Part shown: positions 5,001-20,518 of the stretch, piece by piece | Position numbering within the stretch: the first letter of the stretch is position 1 | Layout: every line of letters begins with the position of its first letter | Virus record (IMG/VR): IMGVR_UViG_3300036985_004760 | Span: 1 to 22,360 of that record | Source: a virus | DNA length: 22,360 nucleotides | Reading direction: 5' to 3' (one strand) | Position numbers and translations under genes: made by a program | The notes under the pieces: generated by a model | The model's input: only the letters and a program-made list of their open reading frames with translations | Told to the model about the DNA's origin: nothing | Database searches by the model: none

Positions 5001-5624
5001 CGACGTAGCAAATCCGATCGTAGCAGTACCCGCAACAGATAGCTTCGCCTGTGGCAAATTGCTCGGTGCATAATAGTCACCAATTCCAATATTGCCACCG
5101 GTGCCGACAAACAATCGAGACGGCCCAGTAGATACATCAGTTACAAAAAACTCGCCAGCAGAATTTAGGTTCCACGATACGATTTTTGCAGAATTTATGA
5201 ACAAGACGGAAGGCGAAGTGTTAGTCGATGCAAGCAGCGATAAACTAGGATTAGCCTTTGAAATAGTTTGATCTTGAGAGAACGTATTAGCCGTGCCAAC
5301 GTAGGCTACGTTGTCGTCCGAGACGGCTGCATCCAGTTCGGCTTTAGTGAATGCAAGGCGCGCAACCGGAAGCGTACCAGATGTAATTTCAGTTGCAACG
5401 TGGTTGTGCGCTGTTGGGGCGTCACCAACATAAAGGACGTTACCATCGGAAACCGCTGCATCCAGTTGTGCTTTGGTGAACGAACCGAGTACGGCTGCAT
5501 TGCCGACTGACGTAACGTGGCCCGTTAGGTTTGAATTGACTGCTTGATTTAGAGTCAGCCCGCTAGAAAGATTAACTTTTATGCCTTCAGTGGTCGAGAC
5601 TGTAACGTTTACTTGATCAGACAT
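2022..5624 (-). CDS. Long repetitive tail fibre protein
   Basis: A 1200-residue fibre. I place the start at ATG 5624 (MSDQVNVTV), which forms TAATG with the upstream stop; an earlier in-frame ATG at 5666 lies inside the upstream gene and lacks this coupling. The sequence is low in charged residues and very rich in Gly, Ser, Thr, Ala and Val. Typical fibre motifs recur: FTKAxLDxAVSDxNVxYxG four times (about residues 48, 91, 500 and 945), NTGDQT-LTGA-TGTGxGSF twice, a [17 protein letters not shown] block twice (about 230 and 883) and [17 protein letters not shown] once. Such modules usually form trimeric beta-helical or collagen-like shafts. The C-terminal about 110 residues ([13 protein letters not shown] onward, ending [16 protein letters not shown]) look like a distinct beta-rich knob seen in other phage tail proteins. 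It probably recognises the host surface. Confidence 0.9.
2911..2978. repeat. 68-bp direct repeat inside the tail fibre gene, copy 1
   Basis: This 68-base stretch is identical to 4870-4937 except for one base (C/T). It encodes the block [18 protein letters not shown] near residue 883 of the fibre. Bases on both sides are also similar but have drifted more, so it is the best-preserved part of a longer duplicated module. Confidence 0.9.
4870..4937. repeat. 68-bp direct repeat inside the tail fibre gene, copy 2
   Basis: Second copy of the repeat at 2911-2978, encoding the matching block near residue 230 of the fibre. One mismatch in 68 bases is much closer than the flanking similarity, which suggests recent duplication, gene conversion or recombination within the gene. 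Confidence 0.9.
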
Positions 5625-5974
5625 TAAACAGGACCCATCGTTAAAACACCCCAAAAAAGCAAGCACTCAAATGCTGAAGATGTCCATGCAACGCTATAAA
5701 CATACTTGCCAGCCGGATCATCGATTGAACGACCAGGCTCTATAGGATTAGATTCTGGTATCTCAAGAAGACACTGAGTTGCATTTAATGCAACTTGATC
5801 GAATGTATCTAGCGTTGCTTTGTCAAAGCTTCTACATATTCTTGTCGTGATAGTGCCGGTTGAAAGCACAATATCAACATTGTTAAGCGCAAGCGAAAAG
5901 AGCGTAGACCATCTGATGCCTTTATACACCAATATGTCTACGCGTTTTGCACGTGGTCCAAGTACGTCTGGCAT
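5624..5974 (-). CDS. Putative Ig-like baseplate or fibre attachment protein
   Basis: A 116-residue protein starting at ATG 5974, in TAATG overlap with the stop of the subtilisin-like gene; its own TAA overlaps the fibre start in the same way. The layout resembles the small N-terminal Ig-like domain of BppU-type baseplate upper proteins: [18 protein letters not shown] (a D-x-x-x-x-rG-type opening strand), a [13 protein letters not shown] strand, QCLLEIPE, then [14 protein letters not shown] and a closing LLFWGVLTM strand. In other phages such proteins join fibres to the baseplate. The family assignment rests on pattern alone and is moderate to low. Its place directly before the fibre gene agrees with an adaptor role. 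Confidence 0.7.
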
Positions 5975-7596
5975 TACAGGCCTTCAGCTGCTGCTTGCAT
6001 TGCTGCAATGTAATCAGGTGTTGCAGTTAAATTCATTGCTTTCACGGCAACTGAGACAGGATCGCGCCAACCCCAGTACCATTCGTAGCGACCATCTTTT
6101 CTTACATCATTTATGGTACCAACAACTTCAGCCATTGCAGCTTGTAGTGTTTGACATTGACCAGTTACGCACTGTCGAGATAACGCGTCAAGCTTTAATG
6201 TGAGTGCAGTCTTGATAGCAAGTGCAGTTGGCTTATCAAGTAGTGCTGCTTTGGCTTTACTCAAGTCTCGAATCTTTGCAAAGTCTTTGCCTGGCACCGG
6301 CACTGGTGTCACTGGAATTGTATCACCCTTGACAACTACCTTAACCCATTGTGGCGGTCCGGTTGAGTTTCTTAAAGACACCCAGAGCAATTGCCCAGGC
6401 TTTCCAACGATCATTACTTTGCCTTCAACTGGCTTCTGTACGATCGGAGGAAACTTCATATCGTCATGTATCTCAACCCACTCAACGCTTGGATTAGGCG
6501 TAAGCAATACGCCAAACTCTTTCTGTGGCTTTAAGTCTTCTGTAAAGATCAGCACTTGGTTACCATCAGGAGTTATAACCGCAGACTTAGCACGCTGAAA
6601 CGTGACTTGCTTCTGTTCTTGACCCAGCACAACCGACTGAAAGATTAGTAGAATAACAACAATGTTTGCGATCTTCTTGAGAATCCAAGCTACGATATTT
6701 TGGTTAGTGACTGTGATACCATCTCCAAATCTTGGATCTCTCCCTACTGGACCAGCGTCTTTTAAGAACTCTTCCGATTTTAAGAAAGCGACAAGACCAC
6801 GTGAGGTCAAAGCAGTCTTCATGCCAAGCTGTTTCATTGCTTGACGAAGCAGCAAGCAAGCCCCAGCAGCAGTTGGCGTTGCCATCGATGTGCCTGACAT
6901 GAACGATGTGCTGTCTGGACCGTTTATGCCAGCGCTTAAAATCAGGCCACCACCTGCACACAAGTCAATTCGAGCTCCACCAGAACTGAACCCTGAGATT
7001 GAGCCATCTTGATTATGACTTGCAACACACACAGTGCTAGGACTTAACGCTGGTGCTATGACAGTTGAAGCACCATTATAACCAGCATTACCAGCTGCAA
7101 CGAATAACCACTTGCCTGAGTCTTCGATCTCTTTTAGTGCAGATTGTGTTGAGCTATCCACGTAATTGCCACCACCCCATGAGCAAGATATGATATCGCC
7201 TTCTTGCTCAGCAGCCCATAGCAACCCTGCAACAGTGTTTGACCCATTCCCGCTGTCACCAAGGACCTTGCCAACTTTAAGATCAGCTTCTGGAGCAGCA
7301 CCTAAACCATTGCGACCTAGGATAGAACCGATTGTATGGGTTCCATGCCCGTTGTTGTCAATAACACTTTGTGAAGAGCTTGTGAAGTTCTTAACAGCGA
7401 GTGGGTCAGGTAATGAATTATGCTTTCTAATTCCGGTATCAAGGTTAATTGCAATGCAACCTTTGCCGGTCATGCCAGCGTCTTTGAGCTGCTGCATCAA
7501 AGCTTCTGGCAGTGTCCAAGGTCGAGCACCTTGGATGGAGATAAGGTTCGTGTGGACCTTATGATCAGGTGGTATTCCGAAGATAGGCTCCGACAT
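5974..7596 (-). CDS. Subtilisin-like serine protease fused to a membrane-anchored C-terminal region
   Basis: A 540-residue protein. The start at ATG 7596 has GGAG seven bases upstream. Residues 1-295 form an S8 (subtilase) domain with the complete catalytic set: Asp53 in NLDTGI, His84 in NGHGTHT, oxyanion Asn170 in AAGNAG and Ser237 in GTSMATP. No N-terminal signal peptide is visible. Residues about 302-326 (around ILKKIANIVVILLIF) form a strong hydrophobic helix preceded by two Lys, ending VLGQEQ; it looks like a signal peptide or anchor placed in mid-protein. The remaining 215 residues include a beta-rich part (VEWVEIHDDM to VKVVVKGD), a Pro-Val linker and a helical end with CVTGQC. The protein sits among tail genes, so it may process a virion or host surface protein. 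Whether it is in the particle is unknown. Confidence 0.9.
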   Translation of the reverse strand: MSEPIFGIPPDHKVHTNLISIQGARPWTLPEALMQQLKDAGMTGKGCIAINLDTGIRKHNSLPDPLAVKNFTSSSQSVIDNNGHGTHTIGSILGRNGLGAAPEADLKVGKVLGDSGNGSNTVAGLLWAAEQEGDIISCSWGGGNYVDSSTQSALKEIEDSGKWLFVAAGNAGYNGASTVIAPALSPSTVCVASHNQDGSISGFSSGGARIDLCAGGGLILSAGINGPDSTSFMSGTSMATPTAAGACLLLRQAMKQLGMKTALTSRGLVAFLKSEEFLKDAGPVGRDPRFGDGITVTNQNIVAWILKKIANIVVILLIFQSVVLGQEQKQVTFQRAKSAVITPDGNQVLIFTEDLKPQKEFGVLLTPNPSVEWVEIHDDMKFPPIVQKPVEGKVMIVGKPGQLLWVSLRNSTGPPQWVKVVVKGDTIPVTPVPVPGKDFAKIRDLSKAKAALLDKPTALAIKTALTLKLDALSRQCVTGQCQTLQAAMAEVVGTINDVRKDGRYEWYWGWRDPVSVAVKAMNLTATPDYIAAMQAAAEGL

Positions 7597-12893: not shown

Positions 12894-14085
12894 TTAAGAT
12901 AGGTTCCGAGTATGGGATGTTAAGCTTATCTTTCAAAGCATCTAGATCAATAGTTGTCATCTCTTGCATAAAGCCGTCAGTGTTGTTAAGCACAGCACTA
13001 TAAACACCACGCAAGAAGATCAGAGAACCATCACTAAGAGGTTGTGGTCTTATGTAAACCTTGTTCTTAAAGTCTTCCCCGTAATTCATAGCAAGTAACT
13101 GATTAACGACTTGGCTATTGAAGGCTGTAATGAATCTTTGATGTAGGAGCTCTATACCTGTTATCGCAAAGTCACCGTGTGCAGTAGCTTCTGCTTTAGT
13201 TCCAAACTGACCTTCAAGCACTGAACGCTCAGGTAACCCGAAGCCACGGACCTTTTCTTTATCACAACGCATTAAACGACTGTCAAAGTTAGCACCTGAG
13301 CCACTCGCTTCTTTAAGATCAATGATCCATTGACTTTTGCTTTGAGAACTTAAGTCATCTAGTATCTCTGTGGTCTTGTAAGGTATCGCCATCGAGCCAC
13401 TATTCTCAAGCTTTGCGATAAGCGTCTTAGCTATGATATCATTAGCGGTTTCAACTCCATTGAGCATTGACTTACCATCTGGAAAGTAAATGATCCAGTG
13501 TGCACCAGCAATTTTCTTATCATATGTATCAGCTACATTTGAAATACGAACAGATTTATCATAGGCATTCTCAACATTGCCCAGGTAAGACTGACCATAA
13601 TGATAGCCGCATTCTGCATCGACGTTAACGAGTACAGTGTCAAAGTCGGTAACGATGACACCGTCAGGTTGTAGGAAGCCTTCGAAGTTTCCGCTTTCAT
13701 CGACGATGATCGAAGTAATGTCTTGAAGCAAGGGCTTAAGCGAACGTATCTTATATAAGCCGTCATCAATCGCATTGATCTTTTCAAAGCCCTGCCAGCC
13801 GAAGTCAATGACTCCACGTGTACAGTCTTCAAGATAATCATTCTTAAGTCGTTGAGCCTCAGTATTGATGTATGTTGCGATACTATCGTCAACGATGTTG
13901 TCAGATTCAGTTGACCAAGAAGCCGACATTATAGCCGAGCGCAACATCAGACGAGCTAAGAATATCGTTGGGTCCTTCCGCATCAAACGGACTTTGACCG
14001 GTGTAATACGATCAGTGTGTTGAGATAAGGTGTTGTCGTAGTCAGATATTACGATGTTTGAAGGCAGTTGATTTGTCGTAGTCAC
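12871..14085 (-). CDS. Portal protein (Mu gp29-like)
   Basis: A 404-residue protein that starts with GTG at 14085, sharing one base with the stop of the large terminase (TAGTG). The family is suggested by the order after the terminase and by segments typical of the Mu gp29 / DUF935 portal group: RKDPTIFLARLMLRSAIMSASWS at the start, DCTRGVIDFGWQGFEKI in the wing region, and RGFGLPERSVLEGQFGTKAEATAHGD with LLHQRFITAFNSQVVNQLLAMNYGE toward the C-terminus. The portal is a 12-subunit ring at one capsid vertex through which DNA passes and to which the terminase docks. The length is shorter than Mu gp29 (about 500), so it may be a compact member. Confidence 0.85.
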   Translation of the reverse strand: MTTTNQLPSNIVISDYDNTLSQHTDRITPVKVRLMRKDPTIFLARLMLRSAIMSASWSTESDNIVDDSIATYINTEAQRLKNDYLEDCTRGVIDFGWQGFEKINAIDDGLYKIRSLKPLLQDITSIIVDESGNFEGFLQPDGVIVTDFDTVLVNVDAECGYHYGQSYLGNVENAYDKSVRISNVADTYDKKIAGAHWIIYFPDGKSMLNGVETANDIIAKTLIAKLENSGSMAIPYKTTEILDDLSSQSKSQWIIDLKEASGSGANFDSRLMRCDKEKVRGFGLPERSVLEGQFGTKAEATAHGDFAITGIELLHQRFITAFNSQVVNQLLAMNYGEDFKNKVYIRPQPLSDGSLIFLRGVYSAVLNNTDGFMQEMTTIDLDALKDKLNIPYSEPILNDNTGLT

Positions 14086-15350
14086 TAACTTGCCACCATC
14101 GATGAAGTGATAGTTGAATCTGTTCGTATTGGGTAGAGCCTATGGACTATATACCCAAGAGCATCGCTCATATGACCCATACCAGGTCCAAGTGCTATCT
14201 CTCGAGTGTTAGGCTTATATGATAGATGTCCTAAGTCATGTATAAGTGCTTTGCATCGTGGATGTACGATTAAACGTCGTTCCTTTGCAGCATTACAAAG
14301 CAGCGCATTAACAGAAGCGTTACGATCTGCAACTGCTGGGTTACTTGTTGTGTACATCATCCTTTTATTAACGAATCGTTCGTCGCTTTTGATTTGTGTG
14401 TAATCGCTGGAGGTGGCGCTTGTCTTTCGTGCTCGACCAGAAGCATCACCCATGAACAGCCATCCTGATTTATGATCAGCATATCGTTCATATAGCCTAC
14501 CAAGAGTCTCTAAGGTGTTCGTGTTTTTAATACGTACTTCATCGAACGCTCTTAGGCCGTTAGGTATCGTTTGTGTAAGTGCCCATGACATCGGGTCTAC
14601 GTTAAAGTCGGACCCGACGATGATAGGAAGCGTAGGGTTATAAGTAGCTTGATCGGTTATGTTGAATATCTCAGAGAACGAATGATACACAACGCCTCGA
14701 ACGTTAAGCCAAGACGCTCTATACTGTTCTTCGTAATCTTGATCGTCAAGCTGCCGACGAGCTGCAAGGATTTCATCGAGTGTTAGGATGTCCTCACTTG
14801 GCCATGTGTATGAATCGACGTCAGGGTCAGTATCTTTTTGACCTTCAAGGAATTTCTTCTTAAAGTCAGAGGCTCCAATACCGAAACGCTTAGGCACTCC
14901 AATCGTCCAGCACCAACCTTTCCTATGACTCAATGCAGGACGTACACTTAAGTCAAATACCTTAGGCTGCTGGTCGCTCGCCTCATCAATAATGCCGCCG
15001 TCCCATTGTGTACCTTCAATACGCTGAGGCTTATCCATGCCGACAATATAAAGCTTAGAGCCGAACACTGTTTCAATGCTAAGACTGCTAACAGATGCAT
15101 TCTTAATCCAATGAGGTGGAATAAGAGCTATGATCGGGTCCCAAGCTACTCGCTTAGCTTGACCATAAGTTGGTAATGCATAGAAGTATTGTGGATTAGG
15201 CCAAGGCTTTTGCACTGCAAGGTAGCGAACGACTCGTCTACGTGCCAGCTCTGTCTTACCACTACCTCGGCCTGCGACTACGATAGAGAATCGCTGCTTG
15301 CTTGTCCACAGAGCATGTTGAACCTCGTGATGTCTAAGCTTGGGCCACAT
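14085..15350 (-). CDS. terL: Terminase large subunit
   Basis: A 421-residue packaging motor. The ATPase half has the Walker A motif AGRGSGKT at residues 26-33 and a Walker B ending in GGIIDEAS (Asp122, Glu123). Coupling motif candidates lie around WCWTIGVPK. The nuclease half has the metal-binding acidic residues expected of the RNase H-like fold: Asp248 in VGSDFNVDP, Asp302 in FMGDASGRARK and Asp396 in GHMSDALGYIVHRL. The start ATG 15350 overlaps the upstream gene by 17 bases and has only a weak binding site. It packs DNA into the prohead at the portal vertex and cuts concatemers. No defect is visible. Confidence 0.95.
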   Translation of the reverse strand: MWPKLRHHEVQHALWTSKQRFSIVVAGRGSGKTELARRRVVRYLAVQKPWPNPQYFYALPTYGQAKRVAWDPIIALIPPHWIKNASVSSLSIETVFGSKLYIVGMDKPQRIEGTQWDGGIIDEASDQQPKVFDLSVRPALSHRKGWCWTIGVPKRFGIGASDFKKKFLEGQKDTDPDVDSYTWPSEDILTLDEILAARRQLDDQDYEEQYRASWLNVRGVVYHSFSEIFNITDQATYNPTLPIIVGSDFNVDPMSWALTQTIPNGLRAFDEVRIKNTNTLETLGRLYERYADHKSGWLFMGDASGRARKTSATSSDYTQIKSDERFVNKRMMYTTSNPAVADRNASVNALLCNAAKERRLIVHPRCKALIHDLGHLSYKPNTREIALGPGMGHMSDALGYIVHRLYPIRTDSTITSSMVAS

Positions 15351-16098
15351 TCATTTGACTTTCAAAGAATTCAAGCCACGCTTTTTTATGAGACGTTGCA
15401 CAGTAGTGAACCCAGGTTGACTTAGGCAACTTAGGGCAATACTTGCTTGGGCATTTATAAGGCACTGCACGATAGTCGTATGTTGATGTTAAGCGCCTCA
15501 TCTTACGTATACAAGCAGTTACTGACAGGACTCGTTGGTCCATCAGCCTAAAGTCATTCTTGCCAAGATTCTTATAAGCATTACGAACGTCCTTGCTTGA
15601 CAAGATACGGATCATAATGTCTTTGTAGACTTCTTTGTCTTCATCAGTGAACGCTTGAACACCGGCATCGCAACACCAAGCATTAGAAATGTCTGGGTCC
15701 CAGTCAATGCCGCAGCATTCCGATATGGCGTTAGTCAAAATGATGTTAGCGTTACTCCAAGATGTGCGGTCAAGACCGCTTACACTTGCCCAGCTGTATC
15801 CTAAGTAAGCTGGGTTACGTAACACAAGTACGTCGTCATCACTATGAATAGTGTCGCCTTCGTAAAGCAGTGGCAGTGCCATCTTTTGGCGCATACTGTA
15901 TGACATGTAGAAGTCGAATGTATCTGGGTTCAATATGTCTTTCATTCGTTCATCGACCTTAAGACTGCTTAATGCTGTAGCATTAAGTATCTCTAAATGA
16001 TGGTCGTCATACACGACTTCCATGTTAAAGTACTTTGAGCTATGCTCAATGAACGCGTGACAGAATTGTATGTTACTTGTCAGTAAGATTAAGTTCAT
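15334..16098 (-). CDS. Putative GT-A fold glycosyltransferase
   Basis: A 254-residue protein, start ATG 16098 with AGGAC upstream; it overlaps the sulfotransferase-like gene by 26 bases. The N-terminus (MNLILLTSNIQFCHAFIEHS) opens like a Rossmann-type strand. QKMALPLLYEGDTIHSDDDVLVL (Asp87-Asp88-Asp89) has the DXD pattern and context of metal-dependent nucleotide-sugar transferases, where the acidic group holds the sugar nucleotide. AWCCDAGVQAF and LMDQRVLSV fit the acceptor-side region, and the end has a WVHYCATSHKKAWLEFF helix. Several Cys residues (CCGI, WCC, CPSKYC) are unusual. The assignment is moderate. Its acceptor is unknown; with the neighbouring sulfotransferase-like gene it may modify the same glycan. 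Confidence 0.65.
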   Translation of the reverse strand: MNLILLTSNIQFCHAFIEHSSKYFNMEVVYDDHHLEILNATALSSLKVDERMKDILNPDTFDFYMSYSMRQKMALPLLYEGDTIHSDDDVLVLRNPAYLGYSWASVSGLDRTSWSNANIILTNAISECCGIDWDPDISNAWCCDAGVQAFTDEDKEVYKDIMIRILSSKDVRNAYKNLGKNDFRLMDQRVLSVTACIRKMRRLTSTYDYRAVPYKCPSKYCPKLPKSTWVHYCATSHKKAWLEFFESQMNVAQA

Positions 16099-16576
16099 AG
16101 CTGAAAGTCCTAGCGTCTAACTCAATGCGTTCCATGATAATGTCGTAAGAACTGTCATCTTTGACCAGCTGCAATTTATGTGTGACGTTGCTTTTATTAG
16201 CGTGGCTCATCTTCCTGATGCCGAAGAACTTGAGCGCATCGTCTAACTTCTCAAGCTTAAAGACATGAGGTGGGTTGGTCTTTTCGTACATTGATGTTAA
16301 AGACTCAGACCAAATGTCAGCAGCATCATGAGCAAGCCAGCGTTGCCAAGTAAGTAAGCTTGTTGTGTATCGCTGTAGTGGCGGGTACTTGAAGCAATGA
16401 TGATACATTGATCTCATACGGTCAAGCGGGTTACGAACCATCATCACATCAACTTTAAGTGGAAGATAATGACGAGGAAGGTACTCAACAGCTCCCATTG
16501 GCTTAAGCATGTTAAGAAGGCTATTCGTACCGCACTTGGTAGGCGTATGTATAACGCATCCATTATATTGGATCAT
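16073..16576 (-). CDS. Sulfotransferase-like protein
   Basis: A 167-residue protein, start ATG 16576 overlapping the upstream TGA (ATGA). Two elements match cytosolic-type sulfotransferases that use PAPS: IHTPTKCGTNSLLNML (residues 9-24) fits the 5'-phosphosulfate loop, where K14, G16, T17 and N18 stand in for the usual K-x-G-T-S/T, and VMMVRNPLDRMRSMYHHC (residues 44-61) fits the 3'-phosphate site with R48, R53 and S56. The end of the protein is alpha-helical and less typical. The length is short for the family (usually 200-300 residues), so parts may be reduced. If active, it would transfer sulfate to a sugar or protein. It sits between the putative small and large terminases. Confidence 0.7.
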   Translation of the reverse strand: MIQYNGCVIHTPTKCGTNSLLNMLKPMGAVEYLPRHYLPLKVDVMMVRNPLDRMRSMYHHCFKYPPLQRYTTSLLTWQRWLAHDAADIWSESLTSMYEKTNPPHVFKLEKLDDALKFFGIRKMSHANKSNVTHKLQLVKDDSSYDIIMERIELDARTFSYELNLTDK

Positions 16577-17205
16577 CCTGTCGTGTCCCTATCCATCTCA
16601 AGTACTTCTTGATCAGGTGTAATGGTAGTGGCTTGAGCTTTACTTATCTGAATCTCGTTTCTTAAACGAAGAGCAAAGTGATTAACGAGTTCGTGGTCCT
16701 TGAAAGTATCGTAGCTGATACGAATTATTTGTTCGATGATATAGTTGAGATCGTGAACACTAAACTTCTCCCGCTGTTCCGTATGTAAAGATGCGGCAGC
16801 CTTGCACATTTCTGCAACTCTTTGCAGATGCATCGCCATAAGCTCCGCGGCGATAAGAATGGACTCTTGCTTGTCGGTCTCAAGAGCAGCACCATACATA
16901 CGAACACTAAGCTGTGCAGCTTCACGTGTTAATGCTAACTCTTGGAAGAGGTTAAGCACATCGTCAGGCTTCTGTTCAAGGGATTCTTGCACAGCGTCGT
17001 TAAGCGCTTTAGTTAATGATCGTCTGTAAAAGCCTGCCACTCTAACCAACCAGTCTTTCTCTTTGCCGCGTTTGCGTCCACCATGAAACTGACAATACTT
17101 TTTACTCTTAAGCGCCCATCTCTCACATCTTAGGCCGCACTTGCGAATGCCCTGACATCTAAAAACACTATCACTCGCTGGCTTGCCACGATTACGATGC
17201 GTCAT
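16573..17205 (-). CDS. Putative terminase small subunit with zinc-binding N-terminus
   Basis: A 210-residue protein. Start ATG 17205 shares one base with the thymidylate synthase stop (TAATG). The N-terminus carries a treble-type zinc motif: Cys17, Cys23, Cys27, Cys38 and His41, ending YCQFHGGRKRG. This C-x(n)-C-HGG pattern is known from phage HGG-motif proteins often found at the small terminase position. The rest is helical (ALNDAVQESLEQKP, DDVLNLFQELALTREAAQLSVRMYG, SVHDLNYIIEQIIRISYDTF), consistent with an oligomerisation region. Small terminases bind the packaging site and help the large subunit start. The assignment is from position and motif; a different DNA-binding role is possible. 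Confidence 0.7.
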   Translation of the reverse strand: MTHRNRGKPASDSVFRCQGIRKCGLRCERWALKSKKYCQFHGGRKRGKEKDWLVRVAGFYRRSLTKALNDAVQESLEQKPDDVLNLFQELALTREAAQLSVRMYGAALETDKQESILIAAELMAMHLQRVAEMCKAAASLHTEQREKFSVHDLNYIIEQIIRISYDTFKDHELVNHFALRLRNEIQISKAQATTITPDQEVLEMDRDTTG

Positions 17206-18050
17206 TAAACTGACACGTCTGCTTTAATAGCTTTATGATGGACGTAGTTCGTCAGCTCAATGTCGACGCTCATTAGCCTTGTAACCTCGTTCGTTGCTAA
17301 TGCGTCATGCATCGCTGCGGTCCACCAAGGTAACGCATAAGGTATTCGGTCTAGCTGCTGTTCAGCCTGTGCCACATGATTGTCGTACAAGTGCAGGTCA
17401 CCGAAGCTGATGATCAAGTCTCGAGGTTTGAGATCAGCGTACACGCCAAGCATGATAAGCAACGACGCGTACGACGCAATGTTATAAGGTAGCCCAAGGA
17501 ATATGTCAATGGACCGCGCGTACAAGTGCAGGCTTATCTGCTTTGACGACTCATGTACTTTGACTTGCCACAGCGTATGGCAGGGCGGCAGTGCTACATC
17601 GCGACAGTGATTAGGATTCCAACCTGTGACGATAAGCCTGCGGCTGTTGGGCGAATGCTTAAGGTCATGAAGCAAGCCAACAATTTGATCGTTGTGATCA
17701 GTGATACATATGGCTGGCTCAAAGTTTCTCCACAGGCCACCATATATATGACCCAGGTCGCCTTCTTCACGGTTGAACTTAGCACACTGTTCAGCAGTCG
17801 CCCACTCTTTCCAGATGTGAGTGCCCATAACTGCAAGGTCAGGCTCACGTGTTGAGCCACTAAGAAACCACCTGAGCTCGTTTAGTATGTTCTTATAGCT
17901 TACGAACTTAGTGGTGAGTAACGGGAAGCCTTCCAGCATACTATGTCGCCATTGACGGCCGAACACTGATCGTGTACCTGTGCCAGTACGATCCGCATGA
18001 GGCTCGCCGTTATGTATAACTTCTTTAAGCAAGTCGTGATATGACCACAT
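17205..18050 (-). CDS. thyA: Thymidylate synthase
   Basis: A 281-residue complete enzyme of the ThyA family, which makes dTMP from dUMP with methylenetetrahydrofolate as donor. Visible landmarks are DRTGTGT at residues 20-26, FPLLTTKF at 42-49, IWKEWA at 79-84, SRRLIVTGWNP at 136-146 with the phosphate-binding Arg pair, LPPCHTLWQ with catalytic Cys157, ARSIDIFLGLPYNIASYA with Arg179, Ser180, Asp182 and uracil-reading Asn190, and GDLHLYDNHVAQAEQQL with His220 and Tyr222. Asn190 speaks against a dCMP hydroxymethylase, which has Asp there. A dUMP hydroxymethylase cannot be ruled out from sequence alone. AAAGGAG stands 7 bases before ATG 18050. The C-terminus (YVHHKAIKADVSV) is slightly divergent but present. 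Confidence 0.96.
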   Translation of the reverse strand: MWSYHDLLKEVIHNGEPHADRTGTGTRSVFGRQWRHSMLEGFPLLTTKFVSYKNILNELRWFLSGSTREPDLAVMGTHIWKEWATAEQCAKFNREEGDLGHIYGGLWRNFEPAICITDHNDQIVGLLHDLKHSPNSRRLIVTGWNPNHCRDVALPPCHTLWQVKVHESSKQISLHLYARSIDIFLGLPYNIASYASLLIMLGVYADLKPRDLIISFGDLHLYDNHVAQAEQQLDRIPYALPWWTAAMHDALATNEVTRLMSVDIELTNYVHHKAIKADVSV

Positions 18051-18557: not shown

Positions 18558-18755
18558 CTACTGAACTATACCCATAGCGTGCATCAGTGCTCGAGCGTCC
18601 TGCGGCCAAAGTAACCCCTTTGAGCGGTCTTGCAATATACGTCCCATAAGTTGTGTAGGTTGTAGGAAATGATACACATGTACATGGCCATCGTCGCTAT
18701 GTAATAATGCGATGTAGTGAAGATCGCAGCTAGGCTTTATAACGGACACATACAT
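18558..18755 (-). CDS. Small unknown protein with an ideal ribosome binding site
   Basis: A 65-residue protein starting at ATG 18755. It overlaps the end of the sigma-like gene by 26 bases but has its own very strong ribosome binding site (AAGGAGGTGATC, 18757-18768). The protein has an N-terminal stretch VIKPSCDLHYIALLHSDDGHVHVYHF with alternating strands and several His residues, and a helical end (QDARALMHAMGIVQ). No family is recognised. A two- or three-stranded sheet followed by helices would fit a small regulatory or host-interaction protein. The strong site suggests high expression. Confidence 0.8.
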   Translation of the reverse strand: MYVSVIKPSCDLHYIALLHSDDGHVHVYHFLQPTQLMGRILQDRSKGLLWPQDARALMHAMGIVQ

Positions 18756-19224
18756 TGATCACCTCCTTAACAAAGAGCCACGGGTCATACATCATTCTTA
18801 GGTTAAGCTTAACATGATTAAGGCTACGCGTCGTTTGTGATACGCTCCAGTTAAGCTCATCTGCAATGTCAACGACTGACATCTTATAGAAGACGTTAGC
18901 TTCTACGAGGTATCTTTCCACATCGTTCAATGAATCAAGAGCGTCGAGATGTGACTCGTTTATCTCAAAAGTAATGTCCATTTCGTCAATGCATTGATGA
19001 GCTTTGCGCTTATTATAATACTTGAAGGCATACCATCTTATGGAGTTTAGGACGTAATTCTCAAGAGGTCGGATGCCGTCGTACAGCTCAAAGATACGAT
19101 GTATCCTCTCAAGCGCAACCTCGCTGAACATTTCGTTACATAGGTCAATGTCATTTCGTGCAGCCTTCATAAGAAGACTTCGTATGCGCTTCTCATACTT
19201 AATGATGTACTCAAATGCATCCAT
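18730..19224 (-). CDS. Sigma-70-like RNA polymerase sigma factor
   Basis: A 164-residue protein, start ATG 19224 with AAGG seven bases upstream and a one-base gap from the previous gene. It has the layout of a short two-domain (ECF-like) sigma factor: residues 23-72 (DIDLCNEMFSEVALERIHRIF and ENYVLNSIRWYAFKYYNKRK) resemble region 2, a linker follows, and residues 97-142 (DSLNDVERYLVEANVFYKM, SVVDIADELNWSVSQTTRSL) resemble the region 4 helix-turn-helix. Its region 2 is divergent and the first helices are short. It probably redirects host RNA polymerase to phage promoters. It is in the operon next to the repeat region 19931-20192, whose boxes are candidate targets. Confidence 0.7.
   Translation of the reverse strand: MDAFEYIIKYEKRIRSLLMKAARNDIDLCNEMFSEVALERIHRIFELYDGIRPLENYVLNSIRWYAFKYYNKRKAHQCIDEMDITFEINESHLDALDSLNDVERYLVEANVFYKMSVVDIADELNWSVSQTTRSLNHVKLNLRMMYDPWLFVKEVINVCVRYKA
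18757..18768 (-). promoter_or_regulatory. Perfect ribosome binding site
   Basis: Minus-strand AAGGAGGTGATC is the complete complement of the conserved bacterial 16S rRNA 3' end (GATCACCTCCTT). It has a 6-base spacer from GGAGG to ATG 18755. No other gene in this window shows so full a match. Confidence 0.85.
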
Positions 19225-19225
19225 A

Positions 19226-19921
19226 CTAAGACCTTCTTCCGTAACACTTACGACACATTACAATATCTTTCTTTACGGTCCACATCACCAACTCACGCTT
19301 CTCAACACCGCACTCAAGGCATATAAGATCTTTAGGTAACCTTAATGCTTTTGCTTTGCGGCGATCATCCTGACGACGTGATACACTTTGTGTGTTCCAC
19401 TGCAATAGTCGCAGTACTTTGACTTCTTCATCTTTGCATTTCTTACAAGGTTTCTTACAAGTATGAGCATCACACCAACCATTATAACACTTCGCACAAC
19501 GATCAGCATTCCAGTTCTTCAAGTCCCATACGTCTTCATTACATATCGAACATACTCTAATGTCTTGACCTTCAATACGACGGTCATAACGATGACAAGC
19601 GATGCAGACGTAAGATCGGTCATCATTAATATGCCAAGGGTGAAGTACTGGTTTCTCTTTCTTGCAACACGGGCAAACACCAATGATGTCAGCTTGAGCT
19701 CGTACGGTTTCGTTTCGTTGCTGCAACAGGCCAAGCTTGTCCCAATCTCTATGAGTCGTTGACTTACCAGACCTACCTACTTGAACTTGACGTTCCCTAC
19801 GTGATCTTCGATGCTCAAGAGTCTCAACCTTACGAAGAGGCTTATCCCGAGTAGTAACCTCTTTCTCACACTGACTGCACTCAACTCCTTCATATAGGCC
19901 ATGTGCTCCGCATATTTTCAT
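19226..19921 (-). CDS. Cysteine-rich multi-zinc-ribbon protein
   Basis: A 231-residue protein. The start is set at ATG 19921 (MKICGAHGLYEG), five bases after GGAG; an in-frame TTG at 19936 lies in the repeat box and is unlikely. CxxC pairs are at 15/18, 83/86, 106/109, 124/127, 142/145, 201/204 and 223/226, with extra Cys at 150, 155, 159 and 162. This points to three or four zinc sites. Residues 83-110 (CPCC, LHPWHIND, VCIACH) resemble an HNH or endonuclease VII-type treble clef, but the usual DH pair is replaced, so nuclease activity is uncertain. Residues 30-60 are very basic (RRSRRERQVQVGRSGK). It most likely binds nucleic acid. It is the first gene after the repeat region. Confidence 0.85.
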   Translation of the reverse strand: MKICGAHGLYEGVECSQCEKEVTTRDKPLRKVETLEHRRSRRERQVQVGRSGKSTTHRDWDKLGLLQQRNETVRAQADIIGVCPCCKKEKPVLHPWHINDDRSYVCIACHRYDRRIEGQDIRVCSICNEDVWDLKNWNADRCAKCYNGWCDAHTCKKPCKKCKDEEVKVLRLLQWNTQSVSRRQDDRRKAKALRLPKDLICLECGVEKRELVMWTVKKDIVMCRKCYGRRS

Positions 19922-19930
19922 ATCATCTCC

Positions 19931-19943
19931 AATCAAATGTCTA
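19931..19943 (+). repeat. 13-bp box A, copy 1
   Basis: AATCAAATGTCTA. It is an exact copy of 19961-19973 and 19992-20004, and the inverse of 20180-20192. It lies just before the start of the zinc-ribbon gene. Confidence 0.95.
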
Positions 19944-19960
19944 TACTATTTTCATTTATG

Positions 19961-19973
19961 AATCAAATGTCTA
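19961..19973 (+). repeat. 13-bp box A, copy 2
   Basis: AATCAAATGTCTA, 30 bases after copy 1 and 31 before copy 3. That is about three helical turns, so a protein binding all three would sit on one DNA face. Confidence 0.95.
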
Positions 19974-19991
19974 TAACTATACCATAGACAC

Positions 19992-20004
19992 AATCAAATG
20001 TCTA
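19992..20004 (+). repeat. 13-bp box A, copy 3
   Basis: AATCAAATGTCTA. It is the innermost copy on this side, 11 bases from the 28-bp box at 20016, mirroring the 11-base distance on the other side. Confidence 0.95.
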
Positions 20005-20015
20005 GTATGCCATCG

Positions 20016-20043
20016 ATGGTCTTTGCAAAACTAGTAATCTATA
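20016..20043 (+). repeat. 28-bp inverted repeat (box B), left arm
   Basis: Begins ATGGTCTTTGCAAAACTAG, whose 19 bases match the right arm (20141-20168, inverted) perfectly. The next nine positions match with two differences. The core TTTGCAAA is itself palindromic. Confidence 0.95.
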
Positions 20044-20140
20044 TAATCTAACTATCTTTATATACGACAATAACAACAAAACTCACAAAAAAACCTGAAT
20101 TAGTGATATTGTTGTATACGTATAGATGTATTGTTGTTTT

Positions 20141-20168
20141 TAGAGATTGCTAGTTTTGCAAAGACCAT
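20141..20168 (-). repeat. 28-bp inverted repeat (box B), right arm
   Basis: Inverse partner of 20016-20043. On the plus strand it ends CTAGTTTTGCAAAGACCAT. The arms are separated by 97 bases between the full 28-bp copies. Confidence 0.95.
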
Positions 20169-20176
20169 GTGAGAGC

Positions 20177-20518
20177 TTATAGACATTTGATTTGAGAATG
20201 CTCAAGTATAAGTTGCAGCAACTCAACTCCATTGCAGAACTCGCCTACCTTTTCGTTACCCCAGAAAAGTTCTCCGGGCATACGAGCAATGTAAACATAA
20301 CGTCCTCGCCTGATGATGCGACCCACAATCACCTCCTGTAATGATGTCAGCCACTTCTTCGCAGCCTTAAACTCAATGAGCCCACACCAGCCTTTACAGA
20401 TCACGAGCCGGTCAGGCCAGCCCGAAGCTTGCATCTTAGCCCCTACGATCGCAAAGATCAAAGCTCCAGTAAGTTCAAGCTCCTTACAAATCTTCCGCGT
20501 CCATTCGGATTCAGTCAT
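20177..20518 (-). CDS. VRR-NUC type PD-(D/E)xK nuclease
   Basis: A 113-residue protein. Start ATG 20518 overlaps the upstream stop by 8 bases (ATGACTGA). The motif QASGWPDRLVICKGWCGLIEFKA has Pro35-Asp36 and Glu49-x-Lys51, the PD-(D/E)xK active site in the short form typical of VRR-NUC domains. An N-terminal Glu (ESEWTRKICKELE) and LTSLQEVIVGRIIRRGRYVYIARM, with Gln61, complete the expected fold. The size is normal for a single-domain phage VRR-NUC protein. It likely cuts branched DNA structures during replication, recombination or packaging; exact substrate is unknown. It lies directly upstream of the repeat region, whose last box A sits in its final codons. Confidence 0.88.
   Translation of the reverse strand: MTESEWTRKICKELELTGALIFAIVGAKMQASGWPDRLVICKGWCGLIEFKAAKKWLTSLQEVIVGRIIRRGRYVYIARMPGELFWGNEKVGEFCNGVELLQLILEHSQIKCL
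20180..20192 (-). repeat. 13-bp box A, inverted copy 4
   Basis: TAGACATTTGATT on the plus strand. It falls inside the last codons of the nuclease gene (encoding IKCL before the stop), so the box is kept within coding DNA. Confidence 0.95.

Follow-up and report, generated by a model that had tools for sequence, protein, structure and literature searches.

A mirrored repeat element upstream of zr

The window that we analyzed spans a whole 22,360-bp virus contig (IMGVR_UViG_3300036985_004760), with its genes on the minus strand. Read in gene direction, the stop of a nuclease gene is followed by an element made of repeated boxes, then by the start of zr and by a sigma-like gene; TerS, TerL and a Mu-like portal gene lie further on. 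The features are as follows.

14085..15350, minus strand: TerL gene, the query used for finding relatives
16573..17205, minus strand: TerS-like gene, with an HGG zinc motif
18730..19224, minus strand: sigma-70-family-like gene, after zr
19226..19921, minus strand: zr, encoding a basic protein of 231 aa with several C4 zinc fingers; start codon at 19921
19931..19943, plus strand: 13-bp box, the copy closest to the zr start, its end 10 bp before the zr start codon
19961..19973, plus strand: 13-bp box, middle copy
19976..20004, minus strand: candidate sigma-70-like promoter, TAGACA-17-TATAGT, its first hexamer within a 13-bp box
19992..20004, plus strand: 13-bp box, the outer block of the left arm
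20005..20015: left-arm spacer of 11 bp, diverged, GTATGCCATCG (sequence read directly)
20016..20043, plus strand: 28-bp box, the inner block of the left arm
20044..20140: AT-rich core, which together with its flanks holds the AT maximum of the contig in 200-bp windows
20141..20168, minus strand: 28-bp box, the inner block of the right arm
20169..20179: right-arm spacer of 11 bp, diverged, reading inward TAAGCTCTCAC (sequence read directly)
20180..20192, minus strand: 13-bp box, the outer block of the right arm, within the last codons of the nuclease gene
20177..20518, minus strand: nuclease gene (phrog_93 endonuclease), upstream of the element

The sigma-70-like assignment comes from Pfam Sigma70_r4_2, found in 11 of 13 cases, and from a PDB profile match to SigE (E = 4e-10). 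Elsewhere in the window, the ORFs at 17205-18050, 16073-16576 and 5974-7596 resemble, from their translations only, ThyA, a sulfotransferase and a subtilisin-like protease.

The 13-bp box, AATCAAATGTCTA, occurs exactly four times in the window, three times on the plus strand and once on the minus strand, and no additional copy with up to two mismatches was found across the 22,360-bp record. Boxes on the same strand follow one another at steps of 30 and 31 bp. The 28-bp box forms a single mirrored pair that is identical over the first 19 bp and has two differences beyond, and the two spacers are equal in length and dissimilar in sequence. The GC content of positions 20035-20149 is 24.3%. The boxes, the mirrored pair, the 11-bp spacers, the 30- and 31-bp steps and a core of about 24% GC had all been described in a first-pass annotation and were all found again here. 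Its placing of the right box inside the coding end of the nuclease gene was also borne out: positions 20180-20192 fall within the ORF at 20177-20518, among the final nuclease codons (ATC AAA TGT CTA TAA).

The window arms (31 nt, 90% complementary) are the best inverted pair of the contig, with a score of 18 against 14 for the runner-up elsewhere. A score of 18 was also reached by 1 of 100 shuffles of the AT-rich stretch of the window, and stronger evidence against chance than the window's own scores is the recurrence of the element in relatives.

Recurrence and variation among relatives

A search with the window TerL gave 46 loci, and the set was widened with a nuclease profile and then with a zr profile. 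Single-protein searches with the window nuclease or zr gave no matches, as did a DNA search of GenBank phages. By tblastn, zr had no match, and the nuclease and TerS found just two environmental records, at about 30%; the annotation of one of these records, MW202657, shows no such unit. A TerL scan of genome contigs returned only matches of 24-31% and no prophage of the group, and a broader scan with TerL added 73 contigs, of which 72 lacked a zr match, many being short of upstream sequence. The exact 19-bp box matched a single viral contig, L005, where it lies inside an apparent HNH-type endonuclease gene; we judged this match to be chance. The group is broad, with a locus GC of about 36-63% and TerL identity down to about 32%, and no cultured relative of it was found.

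A pair of mirrored arms was present just upstream of zr in 25 of the 26 dereplicated zr-bearing contigs with upstream sequence. The miss was G027/G028, whose sole candidate is weak and lies about 1 kb upstream, and the element of G014, also among the 26, is weak. Two loci found later, outside the set from which the rule was made, have perfect arms of 29 nt (L159) and 30 nt (L183), and the sequence of L183 has an extra matching block past short diverged spacers of equal length. Two-block arms with equal-length, diverged spacers recur in relatives, and second blocks compared in the same register gave 7.0 matches, compared with 3.9 for the remaining registers and 3.5 for shuffles (p = 0.002), even though the shifted register in which the window and G009 were entered biases the test against this outcome. 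Over 12 full dereplicated contigs, the element ranked first among inverted pairs in 8, tied in 2 and came second in 1; G007 was missed by the inverted-pair scorer, and its long arms with a 363-bp loop were seen separately. Each genome has one copy of the element. Its outer length is 208-219 bp in 11 of 19 cases, and the distance between arms varies from 173 to 324 bp, reaching up to about 560 in G007, and keeps no constant helical phase. Some of the arms span 30-50 bp.

The boxes are alike within each phage and different between phages. The five closest syntenic loci, at about 66% TerL identity (L010 and L011 being near-identical), hold at the same place the locus's only cluster with at least three copies of an 11-mer, in different letters, e.g., ATAACTGATCA or ATAACTGTCCA in gene sense; the window, L006, L008 and L009 have 190-195 bp between copy 1 and copy 2. 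A common oriented box core is nonetheless discernible near AACTG[AT]CCA. Over 17 genomes, the likeness of box cores was 4.72 versus 3.74 ± 0.09 when shuffled and 3.88 in the opposite orientation; the boxes were chosen manually within the arms, which weakens this test and the matrix tests below. Motif discovery in the AT-rich cores gave a TATA-rich word slightly above shuffles, at no fixed position, and nothing else.

The first-pass annotation had argued that constant spacing with diverged spacers marks binding sites held by selection, and the comparison supports this as a reading of the sequences, in that the mirrored layout and its place are kept while letters and spacers vary. It had also proposed looking in relatives for boxes and spacing that are kept while spacers vary; the layout and the position were found to be kept and equal spacers recur, and the letters of the boxes were not kept.

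Other repeats were seen along the way. G032 and L132 have four nested mirrored blocks at about 5450-5620, which make up an imperfect palindrome, about 165 bp in length, upstream of zr. G020, a distant relative without a zr match, carries the inverted pair AAAAGTCACACATAGGGTATAC with a loop of 206 at 37473-37720 (reverse-complemented); the pair is close to the AT-richest window of G020 and lies upstream of an ORF that may be sigma-like. G001 has a second repeat cluster at 17066-17455, TTCGATACAATAGTCGTACC plus inverted copies, with a pair stronger than that of its element.

Inverted arms might act in RNA, forming a long stem in the transcript and affecting zr processing or translation. The gene-sense strand of the window does fold 6.5 s.d. 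below shuffles (z = −6.5), which we ascribe to the arms, and the arms co-vary between genomes. However, arm differences on the gene strand were C.A in 11 cases and G.U in 10, and this absence of G.U enrichment gives the look of a DNA site, not an RNA helix. The additional box copies in the same direction likewise favor a bound DNA site; the box core sequence is common across genomes, and there is no relevant Rfam family. An RNA element is, in our estimate, very unlikely.

The element might also be a site of recombination or cutting, its core inverting between the arms or the adjacent nuclease cutting a cruciform formed by them. The inverted arms lie beside the nuclease gene in the window and its closest relatives, and one short motif appeared inverted between the window and relatives. 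Yet full-core alignments gave no consistent support for inversion, core orientation was identical in near-identical contigs (of which there are few sets), and we noticed no integrase or recombinase in the translations of G002. The first-pass annotation had put forward strand cutting by the adjacent nuclease; this is disfavored because in several relatives 0.5-2.2 kb separate the nuclease gene from the element, while zr remains adjacent to it. We hold a recombination or cutting site to be scarcely probable. A protelomerase site was rejected as well: there is no tight palindrome, and the arms are separated by about 100-300 bp in almost every genome and by 363 in G007.

Coupling of the element to zr

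The element is followed by zr and then, where found, by sigma, TerS and TerL in 20 genomes. Inserted genes were seen in one genome or another at the nuclease/element, zr/sigma (G007, G012 and G032), sigma/TerS and TerS/TerL junctions. At the element/zr junction insertions were hardly ever found, the exceptions being a possible short ORF in L095 and the ambiguous G027/G028, and most genomes have a box copy at most a few tens of bases from the zr start. In matrix tests, which covered 15 genomes and used boxes chosen by hand, box similarity followed zr best (Mantel r = 0.53, p = 0.004; with TerL partialled out, 0.48, p = 0.010) and did not track sigma.

No known DNA-binding family was matched by zr. 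Its AlphaFold model is confident only in the C-terminal helix and finger, and a fold search returned LIM or treble-clef-like fingers, none of them significant. The window zr is unusually long and the window box is unusual; the window sigma, TerS and nuclease have about 43-62% identity to close relatives. In the clade of L102, L106 and L112, zr has 242-247 aa, two zinc fingers and a C-terminal stretch, which in L102 gives a weak HTH_31 match; an adjacent sigma-like gene was not found beside zr in L102 or L106.

The element could instead be a pac site like that of SPP1, with TerS binding both arms and TerL cutting near the center. It lies upstream of TerS and TerL wherever both were found, and box similarity follows TerS too (r = 0.49, p = 0.004). 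The TerS signal is weaker once zr is allowed for, however (0.26, p = 0.10), and TerS can be up to 4.4 kb off with inserted genes, a separation not seen for zr. The skew has its breakpoint in or close to TerS, away from the element: in G001, G002, G003, G005, G006, G009 and G010 the maximum of detrended cumulative GC skew is 1.1-1.9 kb downstream of the element and within TerS or a few hundred bases of it, and in other contigs it is elsewhere. The pac site of P1 consists of hexanucleotide clusters that flank a central stretch within a terminase gene. Our element resembles it in having boxes on both sides of a center, with TGATCA in the box of G001, G005 and G012, but TGATCA is missing in most relatives and the element is not within a terminase gene. 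The SPP1 site has the layout pacL-pacC-pacR and overlaps late promoters and the ribosome-binding site of the first late gene (PMC6316719). It is like the present element, for which binding is predicted, in that protein-bound segments flank a center at the head of the late genes and the ribosome-binding site of the first late gene is overlapped. In SPP1, however, that gene is TerS, into which pac extends (PMC6316719); here it is zr, and instead of adjoining or overlapping the element TerS lies 0.9-4.4 kb downstream, with zr between. We consider a packaging site quite improbable.

Operator and origin readings

Judged from sequence, the mirrored boxes are probably a binding site, either for late-gene control or for the start of DNA copying. 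Two inward-facing arms of one or two boxes each enclose a usually AT-rich core of similar length, and we picture a dyad-symmetric, protein-bound DNA control site coupled to zr. Tentatively, and at somewhat less than an even chance, we take the arms to be operators through which zr may control the operon of zr and the late genes. The zr protein would bind the boxes; its presence on both arms and at the copy near the zr start would give autoregulation, perhaps with a DNA loop over the core, and would time the start of transcription of the zr, sigma and terminase genes, whose late expression is assumed from gene content. In support are the coupling to zr, the boxes at the zr start, a sigma-like member of the operon and, in the window, a −35-like hexamer within a box. 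We put an operator slightly ahead of an origin because no gene other than zr stays with the element.

Like the element, operator pairs that act by DNA looping, for example gal OE and OI and those of pLS20 Rco, have repeated boxes in two clusters of opposite orientation. The pLS20 operators OI and OII likewise have the regulator gene in the region, but one of them overlaps mapped promoters, whereas here there is no general promoter signal and the arms are longer and mirrored (PMC4207663). The candidate promoter in the window scored z = 3.0; over 19 elements there was no enrichment in gene direction (p = 0.33). This lack of a general signal and the variable arm distance without helical phase are points against an operator, and arms of 30-50 bp were also counted against it since they exceed the need of one operator. 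Stoperators of Cluster A mycobacteriophages are 13 bp long. Like our boxes, for which protein binding is a prediction, they are short asymmetric sites whose specificity shifts between relatives; unlike them, stoperators are scattered genome-wide and serve an immunity repressor (PMC6550527, PMC9283540). The boxes here occupy one locus, and no temperate genes were noticed.

A replication origin, which the first-pass annotation had also named, is a close second to the operator, though less likely than not. An initiator, zr or another phage protein, would bind the inverted arms and melt the AT-rich core, at which the phage's primase-helicase and family-A-like polymerase would load; the phages seem to have replication genes of their own, those in the replication and metabolism blocks of G002 having been named from translations. 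In 10 of 13 dereplicated contigs, no 200-bp window is more AT-rich than that at the element, and AT content peaks at the dyad center (GC 0.28 in the middle third versus 0.38 and 0.42 outside, p = 0.0002). The single copy per genome, the symmetric arms and the absence of a general promoter signal fit an origin as well. Against it, though not decisively, the skew check proposed earlier places no GC-skew extreme at the element, which sits within a co-directional block while the replication-like genes are in a different block, and which is tied to zr, probably a late gene. In G007, G014 and L183, moreover, the AT-richest spot is elsewhere. Within the core, a left-right switch in AT skew was not significant (p = 0.14); GC skew differs between the halves (p = 0.006), perhaps because the right half approaches a ribosome-binding site.

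In SPP1, pac and an origin can both occupy the late region (PMC6316719). The SPP1 origins oriL and oriR resemble the element in having an AT-rich stretch next to repeated boxes, and oriR is intergenic in the late region, but their repeats are direct and bound by gp38 (PMC6316719). Here the main pair is mirrored around the AT-rich center, direct copies occur in some genomes only, and a known initiator gene is not adjacent.

The two functions may also be joined, although we think this unlikely: zr would then be a new phage origin and late-switch factor that couples the start of replication to terminase transcription. It would bind the two-block arms and melt or expose the AT-rich center, and box and protein would co-evolve from phage to phage.

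Across a broad group of uncultured phages, then, one cis element is kept with a fixed plan and changing letters. Its natural variants are a set ready for testing the joint change of a site and its protein, and zr, an uncharacterized zinc-finger protein, becomes a candidate late-switch or origin factor.
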